Shown: one piece after another, positions 5,896-16,559 of the stretch | Position numbering within the stretch: the stretch's first letter is position 1 | Layout of the letters: every line of letters begins with the position of its first letter | From: Blastocladiella britannica | Lineage: Eukaryota; Blastocladiomycota; Blastocladiomycetes; Blastocladiales; Blastocladiaceae | Assembly: GCA_025349905.2 (NCBI GenBank) | Contig: MU624720.1 | Coordinates: forward strand, 1-28,830 | Length of the DNA stretch: 28,830 bases | Direction of reading: 5' to 3' | The notes under the pieces: model-generated | The model's database searches: none | What the model was told of the DNA's origin: nothing | The model's input: only the letters and a program-made list of their open reading frames with translations | Translations under genes and position numbers: made by a program

Positions 5896-7743
5896 ATGAA
5901 TGAACTCATGAACCGGCCCACTCAGCTCAAGAAAGGGACGCGTATCGCCCCTGACGTTTCCCCTTCGCCAACCAAGAATAAAAGTAAAGAAATGACCTCG
6001 ACAAAAACACCAGAGCCCTCTGCCGTGCGCAAGCGCGCGATGGGATCACCGCCAGCACAAAATGACAGCGAAAAGACATCGTCAACGGCCCTGACGCCCG
6101 AGCAGCGCAAGAAGATCATGCGCACCGTGTTTTTCGCGCTGCTGGTCGACATTTTCTCATTCACCATCATCCTGCCGCTGTTCCCACGCCTGCTCGAGTA
6201 TTACAAGCAGAACGAGGCGTCGGACCCGGTTCGTATTCATTACATTTTCTTCGGTCGGTCATGACAATGGAAACTGATTGTTGTTCATAATAGACATCCC
6301 TGTTTTCGTGGACGCTGCGGCAGCTCGACGCGTTTAAGGCCCTGCTCGGGATCCGGGGAACGCGTCTGGACGTGGTTCTGTTTGGCGGCGCGCTCGGATC
6401 GCTGTTTTCGCTGCTGCAGTTTGCCGTGTCGCCGCACATTGGCCGGTTATCGGATAAACTTGGTCGCAAGCGCGTCCTGATGCTGTGCATGGTATCCATT
6501 TTATCATATTATTCATTAGGCGGATCAGATGTACTAACTGATGATGGATGTAGGCAGGAAACCTGGCATCGTGCTTCCTATGGATCATTGCCAAGCCTTT
6601 CTGGGTGTTTGTGGCATCGCGCGTGGTCGGCGGCCTGTCCGAGGGCAACGTGCAGCTGTCGGTCGCCATGATCTCGGACGTGACCACTCCGGAAACGCGG
6701 TCGCGCGGTTTGGTATGCTGTTTTCTGATCGTTTTAACTCTGCCTTCATGAAGTACTTAAATGGATGAAAACAGGCCTTGGTCGGAATCGCATTCGCGCT
6801 CGGCTTCACGTTCGGCCCCGCGGTTGGCGCAGCGCTGGCCTCGCACGACCTGACGGGCCATTCGGCGTTCCTCGACTCGCTCGGCCTGAACCCGTACTCG
6901 GCGTCGGCGCTGCTGGCGTTCCTTTTGATCCTGGCCGAAATCGTGTACCTGCACCGGTCCATGCCCGAGACGCTGGTCCGTCGCATTGTTCCTGCCGCCA
7001 AGCCAAACACCACCACCACCATTACCGCAGCCGTACCGAACACCCAGACCTCCAGCACCCGTCTCGGCACGCTGTCGTCGCTGCACTTCGCGTACCTGTT
7101 TTTGTTTTCGGGGCTCGAGTTCACACTGCCGTTCTATACGTACGACATGTTTGCGTACACCAACGCGCAGCAAGGTGCGCTGCTCGGGTTCATTGGCCTG
7201 GTGGCGTCGGCGGTGCAGGGCGGGTACACGCGTCGGCGTGGGCACGCGATCGGCGAAGAAAAGATCGTGGTTCAGGGAGTGACGACGTGCGCGGTGGCGT
7301 TTGCGCTGATTGCCGCCAACAGCGGGTCCGGGTCCGCCGTCACCAGCACCGCCACCGCGGCGGGTTGGTCATTGTGGGCGGCGGCAACGTTGCTGGCGTT
7401 CACATCGGCGACGGTGGTGACGTGCTTGATGACGCTAGCGAGCCTCGAATGCCGCCGCAGCTCGGACGCGCGCGCCGCTGCCGCCAATGCCCCGATCGGG
7501 GACAGTGAGCACGAGGACGGGTCGGGCGACGACGAAGGGTCGGCGATGGGATCGTTTCGCGCCTGGGGACAGCTCGGCCGCGCGATTGGCCCGCTGGTCA
7601 CTTGCTCGGCGTACTGGATCGTTGGCGCTCGCACCACGTACGCGGTCGGGTCGGTCGCGCTGTTTGCAGTCTCTCTGTGGGTGCACCGGGTGGGGAAGGG
7701 GATTGCGCGGGACCGCAAGGCCGCCTTGGGCAAGAAGCAGTAA
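5896..7743 (+). CDS. MFSD10: MFSD10-like major facilitator transporter
   Basis: Major facilitator superfamily organic-anion/solute transporter similar to animal MFSD10 (TETRAN). Exons are 5896-6228, 6294-6491, 6554-6712 and 6775-7743, giving 552 residues. A start at 5992 would give 520, and either ATG is possible because the first 75 residues are hydrophilic. Family landmarks: FFALLVDIFSFTIILPLFPR in TM1; VLFGGALGSLFSLLQF; the MFS signature GRLSDKLGRKRV between TM2 and TM3; SRVVGGLSEGNVQLS; VGIAFALGFTFGPAVGA; YLFLFSGLEFTLPF; QQGALLGFIGL; and near the end SFRAWGQLGRAIGPL with SAYWIVGA. These occur in the MFSD10 order, so orthology is well supported, although the substrate is unknown. The stop lies 38 bp from the stop of the convergent protease gene. 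Confidence 0.88.
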
Positions 7744-7781: not shown

Positions 7782-10700
7782 TCAACCAAGGATGTCCTTG
7801 AGGAACGCGTCCGAGTTGGGCTCGCGGCCCAGGAACGTGCGCAGCAAGTCAAACTCGTCGCGGGTCCCACCGCGACCAATCACCTCGTTGCGGTACGCGG
7901 CGCCGACGGCCTTGTCCATGATCCCTCCAGGAGCGGCCTTGAACTTGGCGTACATGTCCTGCGCAAACACCTCCGAGAACAAGTACCCGTAGTAGCCCGC
8001 GTCGTATCCGCTCATGATGTGCGCAAACGTGGTCTGCGGGTGCATGCCGTCCTGGAGCGAGAACAGCGCCACGTCCTGCGAGATCTTGGCCCACAGCTCG
8101 GTGGTGTCCGGCACCGCGGCGCCGGGCGCCAGCTGGTGCAACGTCATGTCAACGTAGCAGAATTGCAGCTGCCGCAAGTACTGCAACCCGTTGCCCACGT
8201 TCTTGGACTTGCACAGCTTTTCCACCAGCGCGTCCGGGATCTTGGCGCCCGTCTGGTAGTGCGACGACAGGTTCTTGAGCACCGTCGGCTCCCACACCCA
8301 GTTCTCGTACAGCTGCGACGGCGCCTCGGAGAAATCGCGCGACGTGCTGGTCCCGCTGAACCGCGCGTACTTAATGCGGTTTCCCGTCGCAATGTGGTGC
8401 ACCGCGTGGCCAAACTCGTGCCACATGGTCACGATCTCCATGTGCGTCAGCAGCGACGGGGTGGTCGGCGTCGGCTTGGTAAAGTTACCTGTTCCGTTTT
8501 TTTGCACACTATGTTAAGTGCTTGCCATTTTCGTAAAAAAGGACGAGAAAACATACACTTCATGGCGCACACAGGTACCTGGAACGATCCGTCGGCGAGC
8601 TGGCATCCAGGACGCACGCCAAACACGGCGGCGTGGGTGAACGCTCCGGGCCGCGGGTGCATGTCGAGGTAGAAGGCGCCCAGGTAGTCGTTAGTCTTGG
8701 CGTCGTGCACGCGCCAGGCCGTCACGTCCTCGTGCCACACCTTGGCGTCGGCGACCTGGGTGAACGTCATGCCAAAGATCTCCGAGTACATGGCAAACAT
8801 GCCCTTGAGCACCGTCTCGTACGCAAAGTACGGCTTGAGCTGGTCCGAGTCAAAGTCAAAGTGCAGCTGCTTGTACTTTTCCAGGTAGTACGCCTTGTCC
8901 CACGAGTGCAGAGTGGTCTCGACGGGGAGACCGGCGGCGGTACGCTCGGCGTTCTTGATGGCCAGCAGCTCGCCAATCTCCTTCTCGGCCATCGGGCGCA
9001 GCTTGGCGCGCAGATCCTCCAGGAACGCGTTAACGGTCTCGGGGTTCTTGGCCATGTTGATTTCGAGCCGGAACTGCGCGTGGTTCTTGTACCCGTACAG
9101 CGCCGCGCGCTTGCTACGCAGCGCCACCATCTCCTCCATGAGCGCCTTGTTCATGGGCGCCATGATACCGGCGTCAAACTCGACCTTACGACGGGTTTCG
9201 GCCACGTCACACCGCTCCATGAGCGGAATGCGGTCCGGGTACGCCATGGTCACCACGTACTTGGCCGGGTCGGTAGTGCTGCGGGCCAGGCCGTCCAGGT
9301 ACGACTGCGGCATGCCCGCGAGCTCGGCGGCCGTGAACTCGACCGTGGTCTTGTCCTCGGCGACGTTGCGCGAAAAGTCGCGGCTCAGGTCGCCCATGCG
9401 CACCTGCAGAACCTTGTCCTCGGCGCGCTGCTCGGGGGTAAGCTCCAGGCCCTCGCGGCGGAAGTCACGCAGCATGCGCGACACGTAACGCTTGGTCTCG
9501 TCGTCGACGGTCGCCGGCATCATCGGCTCGGCGGCCTTGAGCGCCAGGTACAGGTCTTCGCGCTTGCCCATCTCGATCGAGAACTCTTGTAGAACCTTGG
9601 CCACCGCCGTGGACGCGTCGCGCACCTCTGGGTTGGGGTCCATCTGACGCGGAAGCATGTACGAGAACAGCTCGGACATCATGCGGTTTTCGATGCGCGT
9701 CAGTCGCACAATCACGTTCTCGTACGTGCGTTCCGAGGCGGGAAGCGCGCCAATCGCATCGTGCACGCGACGCACCGCCGTCACCAGCGCATTGGCGTCG
9801 GCCGTCAGCTCGGCCGCCGTGCGCACCACCTTAAACCCGTCCACGTCCTTGAGCAGCGGCGCCGGCTCGGGTGTAGCAGCGCGGTCCGCCGCCACCACCA
9901 CGGCCTCGATCGCCACCGGCGTCGGCTTGCCCTTGCGCGCGGCCGCGGCAATCGCGTTTTCAGTCTCTTGCCCTGCGTACTTGGACTTGATGCTGTCCAG
10001 CTTCTTTTCCAGAGTGGCCACCGCCGTCTTGAGCTTGGCCACGGCCGGGTGGTCCAGGTTGGCCTTGGCCGCGGCGGCGTCGGCCGCCTTGATCACGTAC
10101 GTGCGCAGCTGCGTCGCGAGCAGCGCCGCCGCCGAGCGAACGTGCGCCAGGTGCGGGCCCGAGAGCTCCTTGGGCAGGTTGATCACGCTCATGGCCGCCA
10201 CGATCCGCACGCGCTCGGCCGACTCGTCAAACAGGTACTCGGCGATCGCCTCGGCAATGTCAGCGCCCAGAGGCTTGGTGGGGACCCAGGCCGAAATGGC
10301 GGCCAGCGCGCCAATGACCGCGAGCTTGAAGCCGGAGGTCAGGCGCATGCCCTTGTCGGCCGCCACCGTCGCGTTAATGGCCAGGATATCGCGCGCGGCC
10401 GCCTCGGACTTGAACTGCGCCAGTCCGCGAACCGCCGCGGCCCGCACCTTGCTGTAAAACTCCATGCCTTCGAGGTCGAGCCCCTGGGCCCAGCGGCGGA
10501 GCTGCGCATAGTCGCGGTCGTCGGCTTGGGCCGCCAGCATCGTCACCAGCGACGAGATCTGCATGTAGGTCCAGTTCTGGCGCACGGCCGGGTCGGCCAG
10601 CTTGGCGCGGGCGTACTCGGACAGCAGCGGGTGCTTGAAGTCGAGGCCAAAGACCATGGCGCGACGAGTCAGGTCATCGGTCTCGAAGTCAATCTGCTCG

Positions 10701-12932
10701 AGCGCCAGCTCCAGGTACGGCGCATGGCGCAGCTTGGCCAGCTCGGCGGCCACCGCGCGGCGCACGTGCGTCGACTTTTCCGCCAGCATCGCCGCCCGGA
10801 CCTTGCGGGCCACCGAGTAGTCGGACGCGTCCTTGAGCAGCGCGCGGTACGCAAACACGCGATTGACCACGTCCGACCCGTTCTTGGCGGTCTCGAGCGA
10901 CATTTCCTGGCTGGGGTTGAAGGGGGCCGCCAGCTCGTACAGCGCAAACCCGTGCGGGTCGAGCTCCACGCGCACCGGCTTGCTGCCAGTCTGCACGCGC
11001 GCCGCCGCCTTGTTGGAGGTGCCGTCAAACGACGCCACGCTGCGGTACACTTTGCCCGAGTCGGTGACAAAGTGCACGGGAATGTCGAGCGCAAACAGCG
11101 GCACCGACTTGTCCTTGTTCTCCTGCGTCTGCTCGATCGTCACCGACGCGACACCCGACTTGGCGTCGAACGCGTACGCGGCTTTGACCACCGGGTGGCC
11201 CTTGGAGTAGAACCACTGGTCAAAGAACTGGGTCAGGTTGAGGCCCGAGTGCTTTTCCATGATCTTGCGGAAGTCGTCCGTCTCGGCCGTCTTCTTGGCG
11301 TACGTGTGGATGTAGTCTGACACGGCCGGCCAGAAGACCTCGTCGCCCATGAGGCCGCGGAGAACGTCTATTCATCATTTGGTCAGATTTGGTTTGTTTC
11401 AGGGGTATATGAGTAAAATCACGTACGAATCCGCGAGGCGCCACCAGGGTAGGTCGAGGCATCAAACATGTCCTATAACACACATGTACAGGTAGTCAGT
11501 TTTCATGTAAAGCTGGAGCAACCAAATAGGGAAACGAACCCAGCTGGAATCAAAGCGACGGTTGACGATCGGGCGCATGTAACGCTTGGTCTGGGCAAAG
11601 TAACGCTCGCGCGTGTCCTGGATGCGCATCTCCGAGAGATCGCGACGCTCCTCGGCCGTGGTCGAGTCGGCGTTGTAGCCCTCGGCAAGGTACACGAGCG
11701 GCAGGTACGTGGCCCACGACTCCTTGAGCCACACGTGCTCAAAGTAGCGCATGACGACGGCGTCACCGAACCAGGTGTGCTATAATATATGTATCTGAAT
11801 ATACATTTGATCGAGTCGAAATAAAGAATATAAGATGTACCGTCAGCTCGTGGAAGTTGGTCATGTCCACGCCGTACTTGTTGTCGCGCGCGTGGCGAGC
11901 GTCCATGTGCACGTGCTCGGCCCACCCGACCAGCGAAATGTTCTCCATGGCGCCGCCGCAGGCCGTGTTGGTGTACTGGTAGTACTTTTGCCATGGCAGG
12001 TTGTGACCGAGCTTGGCCGACGCCCACTCGATCATCTGCGGGGTCTGATCGAGGCCGCGGAACACCTGGTCGGCGGGCATCAGCATCGATCCAAAGTACT
12101 TGATGGGTACTTTCCGGCCGTCGGGGAGCACCGCGTCACGGTCCACGACCGAGTTGAACTCGCCCACGCACATGGAGATCAGGTACGACGGGCACGGCCA
12201 GTCGAGATGCCACGATGTCACGGACCGCGCCGGGTTCCCCTCGACGGCAACGGGCTCACCAATGGCCGCGCCGTTGGCCACCGCTTCAAACGACGCCGGG
12301 GCCGTCAGGTGGAAGGTCAAAGTAGTGCGGACGGTCGGCAGGTCGACGCACGCCAGCCAGTAGCGCGCGCGCTCCGTCTCGTGATCGGTGGCCACGTACG
12401 TCCCATGCGCGGGCTGCCCGTGCCCGCCGGCGCCGCCGTTAAAGTACAGGCCCGTCACCGGCTTGATCACCGTGTACTTGAGAGTGACGGTGCGGGTAGC
12501 GCCCTTTCCGGGGAACGGCGACGCCCACCGCAGCTGGATCTCGCGGCCGTCGTACTCGTGGCCCTCGAGCGCCTCACCGGTCACCGACAGGTCCTCGAAC
12601 GCCACGCCGTGCAGCGTGAGCGACGACGCCGCGTCAATGGTCGCCTGCGGCGTGTGCGCGTCAATTGGGAGCGACCGGTTGCACTTGATCGTGTGGGTCA
12701 CCGTCATGGCCGCCGACGCCTGGTCGAAATCAAAGTCGGCCGCGATCTCGGTGTGCACGGGCTCCAGGACCATGTCGGGCGCGTAGTGCTTGACTGCGGC
12801 CGCGCTCGCAAACCCTTCGAGGTCGTTGGCGGGCGGTGCCGCCATCATCATCATCTCCGCCATGGCCTCGGTGTACTCTTGCTCGTGCGACGAGTGGAGG
12901 TCGTCGGCCTGTGCGCAGCAAAGGTGGGGCAT
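7782..12932 (-). CDS. Fused M1 aminopeptidase / M3 oligopeptidase
   Basis: Five exons (12932-11841, 11779-11540, 11472-11427, 11367-8557, 8488-7782) encode 1631 residues. Residues 1 to about 880 are a full M1 zinc aminopeptidase: GAMEN exopeptidase motif at 327-331, HELTH at 361-365, the third zinc ligand Glu384 in WLKESWATYL exactly 18 residues on, then DMFDASTYPGGAS and a helical HEAT-like C-terminal domain. After a linker rich in Ala, Lys and Pro, residues about 950-1631 are a complete M3 thimet-type oligopeptidase: ETRRKVEFDAG, YGYKNHAQF, NMAKNPETV, YLDMHPRPGAF, NFTKP, HEFGH at 1420-1424 with RDFSEAPSQ downstream, then GYDAGYYGYLFSEV. HEFGH is separated from its Glu by 26 residues (24 in human THOP1). 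The join lies inside exon 4, with no stop or splice site needed. No signal peptide is evident, so the protein is probably cytosolic. The start is uncertain: an ATG at about residue 24 (MAEMMMM) is an alternative. Confidence 0.92.
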
Positions 12933-13170: not shown

Positions 13171-15590
13171 TCAGTACTTGCGGCTGCTCTGGCTGCCGCG
13201 GCCCATCCACGGCTGCTGGACGCGGTCGCGGTCGCCGTAACCGAAGCTGCGGTCGCGGTCGTTTCCGTAGCCACCGCGATCGCCATAGCTGGGGGGGCGG
13301 CGGCGATCGTTGTTGCCGCCGCCGTACCCGCCGCCGCCACCGCCAGAGCGACGCATGGGAGCGGCACGGGCAGTGAATGACGGACGGATCGCGGCGGGCA
13401 GCGACGGCGTGTGCCGCATTCCGAGCATGCGGTGGAAGTCCTCAAGCTCCTCCAGGGTCCGCGCGCCCGTGTATCCCGAGCCCTTGATCGAGTCCATCTG
13501 TCCTTGGTCTGATCTCGAGTCAGTTAGATATGATCCATGTAAATTGATAAGGACAAAGAACATACAAAAGCCAAGACTGCCCAGGAACGCGTCTTCGGCC
13601 TCAACCTCATCAATGCGCGTGCACGCGCGCGCAATGGCACTGGCGGCCATTTCGCCGTCCCAGGCAATGTCGTCGCCCAGGCCAATGTTGACCGACGCCA
13701 CGGCCTCCACGGTCGGGCCGTCCCCACTGCGCTTCTTCACCACAGCGCCACCCTCCTGATCGGCATCAGCAGCCTCAATAGCAACCGGGACCAAGGGCGC
13801 CTCTACGCGCGTGACGGTGATGCCGTTGAGCTCGTCCAGGAACTGGCGCTCGAACGGCGCAATGATCATGACCCCGGTCCCGTCACGGCCAGCGCGGCCC
13901 GTGCGGCCGACACGGTGCACGTACTGGTCCTTGGACATGGGAATGCCCATCTGCACCACCAGGTCGACGCCCGGGTAGTCGACCCCACGCGCCGACACGT
14001 CCGACGTGAACAGGATCCCGGACCGCGCCGACTTGAAGGTGTCGGCGATCCGTGCGCGCTGTGCCTGCGACTTCTTGCTGTGCAGCTCAAAGATGTGGTT
14101 GCGGCGCACGGCTCCCAGCACTCCCGGCTCGCCCTGAGCCACCAGATTGCGGAACAGCTCCGAGTAAATCGCTACCGCCTTGGTGGTCGGGAAAAACACG
14201 ATGGCCTTGAATGCGGGACCGGTAACGGACTCGGGCTTCTGCGGCGCACGCGACTTGTGCCCACCGTAGCTGCTGTTGCGGTCGCGGTGTAGACCCTCGG
14301 ACTCGGCCACAGCGCGGTCCTTGGGCGATACCTTGGCCGCCGACTCGGCAAACCCACGCGCCAGAATGCTGTAGAGAATCTGAGGGTGGCGCGTCAACGG
14401 CGCGACCGTCGCAAACTGCGTAATGCGGTCCACGGTAGCCTCGTCGTCGGGCGAGATGGTGTTGATCACCTCGTAGTCCGGGCGCAACGTCGAGTTCACC
14501 AGCGCTTGCACGTTGCTCGGGTAAGTTGCCGAGAACAGGAGCGTCTGCGGCGACGGGGGCAGGTACGTACGCAGCCGCTCAATGTCTTCCTTGAAGCCAA
14601 TCTCGAGCATGCGGTCGGCCTCGTCCAGGATAAACTATTGTTTTTTGGTCAGTTGTTTATTCGTGTCGGCATACACAAAGCGCAGACAGACAAAAAATAA
14701 ACACGTACCGACTGCACGCCCTCAAGGGACTCGCGGAACCGTGACTCGGTCTGGCACATGTCGAGCAGGCGGCCGGGGGTGCCGACAACAATATCGACGC
14801 GGCGACGGGCCAGGTCGCGCACCTGGCGCACTTTCGACTCGCCGCCGACCAGCATGTGCACTTCGGCGCGGGTGTGCGAGCACAGCTTGGTAGCCTCCTC
14901 GGCGATCTGGGCGGCCAGCTCGCGTGTTGGCGACACAATCAGGACCTTGGTCGCGTGGCGGCTCGCCGGGCGCGCCCACTCGGGGTTGGCCAGCATCGCG
15001 TTGACGGCCGGGATCAGGAATGCCAGCGTCTTGCCCGTACCGGTCTTGGCCTGCACCACCGCATCGCGCTCCAGGGGCATGCGCGACGTCACCGCCGCTT
15101 GCACGGGAGTGCAGTGCTCGTACCGGAACGTGCGCGTCAGCGCGTACAACAGGTCCGGAACCAGCCCCGGGACATTGGCCCAGGCCATCGGCGGCGGCGC
15201 AGTGTACTCGAAGGGCGACTTGAGCGATTTCCAGTCACTGGCCTCTTGCTGGGACTGCTCGTCACGGTTGTAGCCTCCCGACCGGCGGCCATTGTTGAAG
15301 TGGTTGTTACCAGTGCCGTGGGATGACCGCGGGACGTGGTCGTAGCGCGCGTCAATGGACGACCGAGGGTGCGCGTCGCGTTGGCGCGTATCGCGGGGAC
15401 GGAAATCGCGGTCATATGCCTCTGAGCGCAGGGCGGTTGTTGACAGGAATGACTGGGTCATCCGCATTGCGGCGACTCCTTTAACAAGGAATTGCAATCG
15501 CGATGCCGGCGCCGACGCCAACAAGAGCGTTGGCGACGGGACGACAACGGCGGAGCGGAGCGAGGATCTCAGCGCAAAGGACGTCAACAT
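13171..15590 (-). CDS. Mitochondrial DEAD-box RNA helicase, Mss116-like
   Basis: ATP-dependent RNA chaperone, probably mitochondrial. Exons 15590-14709, 14634-13566 and 13508-13171 give 762 residues. The N-terminus (MLTSFALRSSLRSAVVV...) lacks acidic residues for about 55 positions and looks like a presequence. The helicase core is complete: Q-motif region CTPVQAA, motif I AKTGTGKT, Ia PTRELAAQ, TPGRLLD, II LDEAD, III SAT, then IV FFPTTKAVAIYSELF, V SDVSARGVDYPGVDLVVQMG and VI HRVGRTGRAGRDG. The form ARGVDYPGVDLVVQ and the LGFY block after the core fit Mss116/CYT-19 helicases, which help group I and II introns splice. The tail is Arg/Gly/Tyr/Ser-rich (RGG-like), also typical. The DEAD motif falls just after intron 1. 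It is divergent from PPP4R2. Confidence 0.9.
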
Positions 15591-15706
15591 TGCTACGTTG
15601 GGTTGGTTCGTGGTGGTGGGCGCGTTGTTGCAGCCGCCATCACCTCTGAAAAAAAAAAACTCGTCACGCGTCAGGGAACCAACTCTTCGAATTTTTTGAA
15701 GTAAAA
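15591..15706. promoter_or_regulatory. Shared divergent promoter, helicase / PPP4R2
   Basis: Only 116 bp separate the two start codons, so both promoters and both 5' leaders lie here. An A run (about 15650-15658) is in the middle. No recognised factor site. Confidence 0.45.
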
Positions 15707-16559
15707 ATGTCACGACGATCCCACCCGTCGCTCGAGAGCCTGCAAGGTTGTGTGGTGCGCCGGGGAATATCCATATGGACGCAGCTCGTGCATGGTCACT
15801 GACTCTCAATTTACATTCAGCGTTTTGCGCACGCCCCGAGGCCGAGCGTACGTGGGACGCGGACTTCGAGCCGGTACTGCACCACACTGCGACCACAGGA
15901 GCGCTGTGCGTCGCCTGGCCAATTCTGCGCGAGCTTGCCAAGGCGCGCATTTTGCATGTGCGCTTGATTTATGATTTTTGGTCTAAGCGAAAAATGCACT
16001 CAAAATCTTGGGCCGACCATGCAGATCATCACCGCCCTCAACGCCGAGGCCGAATCTGCCGGATCCGCGCCTGATGCCGCGGCCGTAAACGCTCACCTGC
16101 GCGTCATTGGCGCTCACATGGACGCGCTTGTCCAGTAACGTATTCCACTTTATCGGACCAAGTCTTTGTAGCCTTACGAAGGTAAAAATTTCCGTCAGAT
16201 CGCCGTTTACCGTGCAGCGACTGTGCGAAATCGTGCTGGTGCCGCCACACACGGATGTGCTCAAACTGCTGCGCGCCGTGGACAAGGTGGTGGCCGTGTC
16301 CCAGGTGGAAGTGCCGTCCGAAGTGGATACCGATGGTCCAGGCGGCGGCGGTATGGATGGCGACGAGCTGCTGGAGCGCGCGCTCGTGGCATTCACACAC
16401 CACCTGACGGACGACAACAACAACAATGCTCAGGACGACGACGATGATGACGATGACCAGGACCGCACCATCACGCTGCGCCGATCGGGGTCGGGCGGCG
16501 ACGGCATGGAGGGTATAGAGTCTTCGGCGGCAACCACCGCACCATGGGCGACGCCGTGA
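15707..16559 (+). CDS. PPP4R2: Protein phosphatase 4 regulatory subunit 2
   Basis: Regulatory subunit of the PP4 phosphatase complex (with PP4C and the R3 subunit), which acts in DNA-damage recovery and centrosome function. Exons 15707-15746, 15821-15957, 16025-16134 and 16199-16559 give 215 residues. The N-terminus matches the family: FEPVLHHTATTGALCVAWPI followed by LRELAKARI, then the hallmark SPFTVQRLCEIV and LKLLRAVDKVVAVS. The C-terminus is Asp/Asn-rich (eight consecutive Asp), as in other R2 proteins, which end in acidic disordered tails. The protein is about half the length of human R2 (417) and keeps only the conserved core. The last splice was set by the need to join CA to A-TCG in frame at 16134/16199. 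The stop is 19 bp from the convergent kinase stop. Confidence 0.88.

Follow-up and report, generated by a model that had tools for sequence, protein, structure and literature searches.

The question raised by the locus described here is whether Blastocladiella britannica (Blastocladiomycota), a fungus whose spores swim, encodes a complete M1 aminopeptidase and a complete M3 oligopeptidase in a single chain, and what such a pairing might do. The window, meaning the whole stretch of 28,830 nucleotides that was analyzed, comes from contig MU624720.1, one of 624 contigs in the 15.3-Mb B. britannica assembly. The gene consists of five exons on the minus strand separated by four GT-AG introns (Table 1). 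When the exons are joined, the open reading frame of 4896 nt is translated into 1631 residues, with the sole stop codon at the very end (7784-7782). An identical 1631-residue protein already exists as a database prediction for this species (P0001). Splicing, translation and a motif check showed that the coordinates, the length and the motif list given in a preliminary description of the locus were all correct. Its central claim, one frame with two complete peptidase units and their catalytic motifs, was also borne out when the translation was analyzed with Pfam.

The amino-terminal half has the features of family M1. The GAMEN motif starts at residue 327 and HELTH at residue 361, and these are followed by Glu384 and Tyr452, giving the GxMEN motif, the HExxH-18-E pattern and the conserved tyrosine. 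An N-terminal M1 domain was detected (Peptidase_M1_N, PF17900, residues 60-251, 32.9 bits against a cut-off of 25.8), as was the catalytic domain (Peptidase_M1, PF01433, residues 294-511, profile positions 3-218 of 218, 111 bits against a cut-off of 27.7). The C-terminal helical part was recognized by alignment to unfused relatives, with 48% identity to P0009 across 909 columns.

The carboxyl half has the corresponding features of family M3. HEFGH starts at residue 1420, EAPSQ, which carries the distal glutamate, at residue 1451, and the tyrosine-bearing loop GYDAGYYGYL at residue 1557. This loop lies near the M3 active site and counts as important. The Pfam domain Peptidase_M3 (PF01432) spans residues 1176-1628 and covers profile positions 2-454 of 457 (421.9 bits, E = 5.9e-126). 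Furthermore, residues 983-1627 align with residues 37-674 of neurolysin (E = 2e-152), so that both sequence and motifs agree with the earlier assignment to the thimet oligopeptidase and neurolysin kind. The fold was checked on the B. emersonii counterpart, P0126, where a Foldseek search with the M3 body of the predicted structure gave thimet oligopeptidase with a best E of 5.9e-59 and human neurolysin with a target-normalized template modeling score of up to 0.97.

The preliminary description had proposed a search of protein databases for other M1-M3 architectures. That search showed that the fusion is not a one-off and found BCR44DRAFT_1434945 of Catenaria anguillulae (P0003), a single M1-M3 prediction of 1620 residues that is named after its M3 domain. 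P0003 aligns end to end with the B. britannica protein, with 53% identity overall, 61% in the M3 profile region and 58% in the M1 catalytic region, indicating that neither half looks decayed. In B. emersonii the M1 protein P0008 (H9P43_003220) stops in the middle of the helical domain, at the position of B. britannica residue 771, and the first 108 or so residues of the 775-residue "metalloendopeptidase" P0126 lie outside M3. With this tail as query, a BLAST search of 42 sequences, run without filters or composition correction, matched residues 1-108 to the C-termini of P0009 (E = 5e-13) and P0012 (E = 5e-10), both of them unfused M1 proteins, and to residues 846-947 of the B. britannica fusion (E = 2e-6). 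The simplest reading of these sequences is that B. emersonii probably has one fused gene that was cut in two by annotation. The genes of P0008 and P0126 are possibly adjacent. A real split in this species is a possible alternative to the fused gene. The fusion is thus better described as a database prediction in B. britannica, a prediction in Catenaria and a case with strong indirect evidence in B. emersonii. The joined gene is shared by a second fungus and very probably by a third, which makes the pairing look ancient and conserved and not like a mistake of reading.

The catalytic residues are retained in these three species. The GAMEN, HExxH, glutamate and tyrosine set is present in all three M1 copies of the fused clade (P0001, P0003 and P0008), and HExGH and EAPSQ in all three M3 copies (P0001, P0003 and P0126); the tyrosine loop is found in two of the three, those of B. 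britannica and B. emersonii (P0126). Among 11 unfused M1 rows, a motif was lacking at the expected place in P0009, P0010, P0012, P0013, P0014 and P0033, and P0011 reads GAMED. These deviations may be faults of the gene models or real changes. Several of the fungal relatives also share a cysteine-rich amino terminus (MPHLCC, MPNCCAH, MPCHCAH, MPCSCAHH, MPCHCAL, MPCCNIH). In the B. britannica protein it comprises residues 1-12 (12932-12897) and could bind metal or undergo modification.

The junction lies inside exon 4, which is free of stop codons over 936 codons, about 429 residues of which belong to the M3 share. The openness of this exon is by itself weak proof because the DNA is G+C-rich and an overlapping antisense frame of 575 codons is open as well. 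A chance open frame was rejected, since homology to Catenaria is found on both sides of the junction and through it. Furthermore, when the gene was divided into 20 blocks of 80 codons, the third-position G+C content ranged from 0.81 to 0.95, and the two blocks at the junction, with 0.88 and 0.84, fell within this range. No intron-like stretch was found at the junction, the lowest G+C content of any 60-bp stretch between 10400 and 9600 being 0.48, as against 0.25-0.40 in the four introns. Taken together, these results favor a true join over chance.

Most of the unfused M1 relatives whose ends were inspected finish in a helical, coiled-coil-like tail. The fusion retains this tail, which is followed by a linker and then by M3. 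Between B. britannica and Catenaria, 15 of 32 residues are identical in the coiled coil and 16 of 40 in the linker. An AlphaFold2 model of P0126, built from 34 rows, had a mean predicted local distance difference test score (pLDDT) of 88.9 and a predicted template modeling score of 0.81. In this model the M1 tail consists of helices of moderate confidence, the coiled coil is one helix of 38 residues (54-91), residues 92-108 have a pLDDT under 50 and the M3 body is of high confidence. With its low confidence, the linker of the model is more in keeping with tethering than with a built-in channel.

The origin of the fusion was analyzed with separate trees of the two halves, using rows picked by hand from the matches and treating B. 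emersonii as fused on the indirect evidence given above. In the M3 tree (16 rows) the three fused or probably fused copies formed one clade with support of 100/100, and in the M1 tree (15 rows) the same three copies did so with 100/99. The M3 tree omits the long-branched C211 and 13 other rows, and the M1 tree omits Bsal_P0019, Chyc_P0045 and 14 bacterial or unlabelled rows. Quick trees of 30 rows for M3 and 31 rows for M1 concur, with a value of 100 in the Shimodaira-Hasegawa-like approximate likelihood ratio test. The order within the fused clade was supported at 89/90 in the M3 tree and was unsettled in the M1 tree. Since the trees of both halves each group the three copies, a single joining of one M1 copy to one M3 copy is probable, and it would predate the split of the two Blastocladiella species and Catenaria, as far as the sequences indicate. 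The closest unfused M3 in the tree is Catenaria P0127; on the M1 side, further predictions from Blastocladiella and Catenaria are the closest unfused proteins, and Allomyces falls outside them. Unfused M1 predictions are present in both Blastocladiella species and in Catenaria.

Two observations concern these unfused relatives. The Catenaria M1 protein P0014 ends before the coiled coil, and it may be encoded next to the M3 protein P0127, or the two may be a second M1-M3 gene split by annotation. Allomyces, from which M1 relatives were listed, is not named among the at least 120 M3 matches listed. Since most M3 matches are nameless, this gives no more than a hint that Allomyces lacks a close M3.

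Further fusions were sought in both directions. In the M3-directed protein search, 7991 candidates of 897-2854 residues were scored and seven matched, two of them with both domains (B. britannica and Catenaria). The M1-directed search scored 7995 candidates with 243 matches, and both domains occurred in the same two proteins among the best 120 of the 243. No third M1-M3 protein was found among the matches listed in either search, by which distant fusions could be missed. The long Elusimicrobiota protein P0002 and the related P0004 were considered as M1-M3 fusions and rejected, being M3-M3 and M3-M3-M3, respectively. These tandem proteins are of bacterial type, with two units in P0002 and three units within 2119 residues in P0004. 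A prokaryotic origin of the pairing was also considered. When ten M3 proteins were compared by tblastn with the best 80 of 120 prokaryotic loci that contain M1 relatives (bacteria and one archaeon, L087), two weak matches were obtained, in L069 (24% over 255 columns) and L070 (20% over 341 columns), while the M1 control matched 80 of 80 loci. The search thus gave no convincing M3 neighbor at these 80 loci, and the origin was rejected; the absence is weak evidence because many loci have short flanks.

The two public proteins, of B. britannica and Catenaria, already have Pfam domains of both kinds assigned. An M1-M3 fusion was not described in the literature searched, which consisted of open-licence papers with subscription journals mostly outside, in agreement with the earlier statement that none was known. 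The main text of PMC8778642 does not contain the terms "M3A", "M01", "fused" or "Catenaria". The component enzymes are of ordinary kinds, but their combination and its conservation are out of the ordinary.

As to function, we hold with moderate confidence that the protein is a conserved single-chain zinc peptidase with two sites, acting on short, mainly proteasome-derived peptides, in which M3 would cut inside the peptide and M1 would trim N-termini. A passage of PMC7565970 gives 9-12 residues as the preferred peptide length of thimet oligopeptidase (THOP1), within a range of 5-22, and places the enzyme after the proteasome; similarly, part of PMC10343166 describes PSA, an M1 enzyme, as degrading peptides released by the proteasome. 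The M3 half would make internal cuts in peptides of about 5-22 residues, presumably in the cytosol. Fragments with new N-termini would then arise near the M1 site, and the M1 half would remove their N-terminal residues. Fragments would be concentrated near the second enzyme by the tether, perhaps the more so through pairing of the coiled coils, and peptides left by the proteasome would be broken down faster. Since the linker is flexible, hand-over through proximity is preferred to a sealed tunnel.

Several observations weigh against this interpretation. The fusion is known from DNA sequence and predicted proteins alone, and B. emersonii is annotated as having two proteins. The Catenaria model P0003 is without the approximately 10-residue M3 tyrosine loop (near residue 1555), which may be an error of the gene model or a real loss. 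The BLAST search with the P0126 tail missed P0003, which was within the 42 sequences, although MAFFT aligns the two, and gave no match in the tail of B. britannica P0011; these misses suggest that the M1 tail evolves fast. In the P0126 model, the confidence over the M1 tail was only moderate, with means of 42-74 for 10-residue blocks. Finally, neither P0001 (E = 0.6) nor P0003 (E = 0.0022) reached the cut-off of Pfam HEAT_2, so that the label "HEAT-like" for the fused M1 depends on its relatives.

It is possible, if rather doubtful, that the halves are fused without any relay, the link serving to place or oligomerize one enzyme by means of the other, or to fix equal amounts, while the two sites serve independent peptides. 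The flexible linker of low confidence and the retained coiled coil would fit such mere tethering. However, the fused clade has kept both catalytic sites, and both families are known to act on overlapping pools of short peptides (PMC7565970, PMC10343166).

Two working proteins are an unlikely outcome: the chain would be cleaved, or an internal promoter or start would yield M3 alone, and the long frame would not be the main active form. The two-protein annotation of B. emersonii, a linker that could be cut and a long frame read from DNA are in keeping with this. However, the B. emersonii M3 model begins with an M1-type tail and not with an M3 start, the M1 model of that species stops in mid-domain, and the Catenaria gene is predicted as one protein.

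We consider it very improbable that one half is non-catalytic, for example M3 in Catenaria, which would make the fusion a regulated or scaffolded single enzyme. The missing loop of the Catenaria model is in line with this idea, but that gap may reflect mis-splicing, no other motif is missing from any of the three copies, and both Blastocladiella copies have the loop. An artefact of assembly or splicing that joined neighboring genes can be practically dismissed: although the B. britannica evidence is one assembly and this DNA often has long open frames, the junction is within one stop-free exon of 2811 nt and the Catenaria prediction contains the same join.

If the protein is a conserved two-site peptidase for short peptides, it might tentatively be viewed, by analogy, as a eukaryotic single-chain counterpart of the tricorn system, in which M1-M3 molecules paired by coiled coils would make up a compact machine for turning peptides into amino acids and would catch the products of M3 at the M1 sites of the same assembly. 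It would also be the only close M3 of thimet type in B. britannica. An M3 profile search of the genome found at least two further M3 genes, C211, a divergent M3 on a long branch, and C64, which from its general resemblance we take to be of the mitochondrial intermediate peptidase type. In cells, the last steps of protein breakdown fall to several soluble peptidases that are separate proteins, and it is difficult to demonstrate that they cooperate. A conserved natural fusion in which one enzyme cuts inside peptides and the other trims their N-termini suggests that the M1 and M3 families work as partners, and it provides a single protein in which hand-over between post-proteasomal peptidases could be tested.

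Table 1. Features of the M1-M3 fusion gene in the window; base positions of the motifs were derived by hand from the spliced translation.
Feature	Position	Strand	Location or basis
Whole M1-M3 fusion gene	7782..12932	-	Spliced and translated; identical to database protein P0001
Exon 1: N-terminal domain of M1 and start of its catalytic domain	11841..12932	-	Translation, Pfam
GAMEN	11954-11940	-	Exon 1
HELT of HELTH	11852-11841	-	End of exon 1
Exon 2: final His of HELTH and Glu384 (third zinc ligand)	11540..11779	-	Translation, motif check
Glu384 codon	11722-11720	-	Exon 2
Exon 3, 46 nt: Tyr452 of YPGGA motif	11427..11472	-	Translation, motif check
Exon 4, 2811 nt: remaining M1 (domain III, HEAT-like helical domain), coiled coil, linker, M3 start; junction inside	8557..11367	-	
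Coiled-coil tail of M1 unit, residues 896-927	9965..10060	-	Similar tail ends unfused relatives; one long helix in B. emersonii model
M1-M3 linker, residues 928-967, about 40 residues	9845..9964	-	Catenaria alignment; pLDDT under 50 in B. emersonii counterpart
Exon 5: M3 catalytic part with HEFGH, EAPSQ and tyrosine loop	7782..8488	-	Translation, Pfam, motif check
HEFGH	8420-8406	-	Exon 5
EAPSQ	8327-8313	-	Exon 5
Tyrosine loop GYDAGYYGYL	8009-7980	-	Exon 5

The upstream neighbor on the minus strand (13171-15968) is presumably a DEAD-box RNA helicase-like gene, and the convergent downstream neighbor on the plus strand (about 6294-7743) is assumed to be transporter-like, both from motifs in their translations.

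In archaea, the tricorn protease and its interacting factors F1-F3 couple an internal cutter to an M1-family trimmer that finishes peptide breakdown. The likeness of the fusion to this system is one of working only and no membership is claimed, as the archaeal components are separate proteins with an unrelated core protease; the tricorn interacting factor F3 was among the structure matches of the M1 half. The long M3 proteins P0002 and P0004 and the fungal P0005 and P0006 likewise have M3 within a longer chain, but they are without M1; according to Pfam, M3 is accompanied in them by additional copies of itself, by a transporter domain or by ankyrin repeats. Thimet oligopeptidase and neurolysin resemble the M3 half over nearly the whole enzyme, in the predicted fold (of the B. 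emersonii counterpart), in the zinc motif and in EAPSQ; in the fusion, however, M3 sits behind a complete M1 in the same chain. Catenaria P0003 has the same M1-M3 order and differs in that its model is without the M3 tyrosine loop. The M1 half shares its motifs and its M1_N and M1 domains with aminopeptidase N, PSA and tricorn interacting factor F3. Among M1 proteins, those of bacteria and chytrids that have a HEAT_2 domain are particularly close to the M1 half, whose coiled-coil tail is like that of the unfused relatives. Whereas those unfused M1 proteins end after the coiled coil, the fusion continues into a complete M3.

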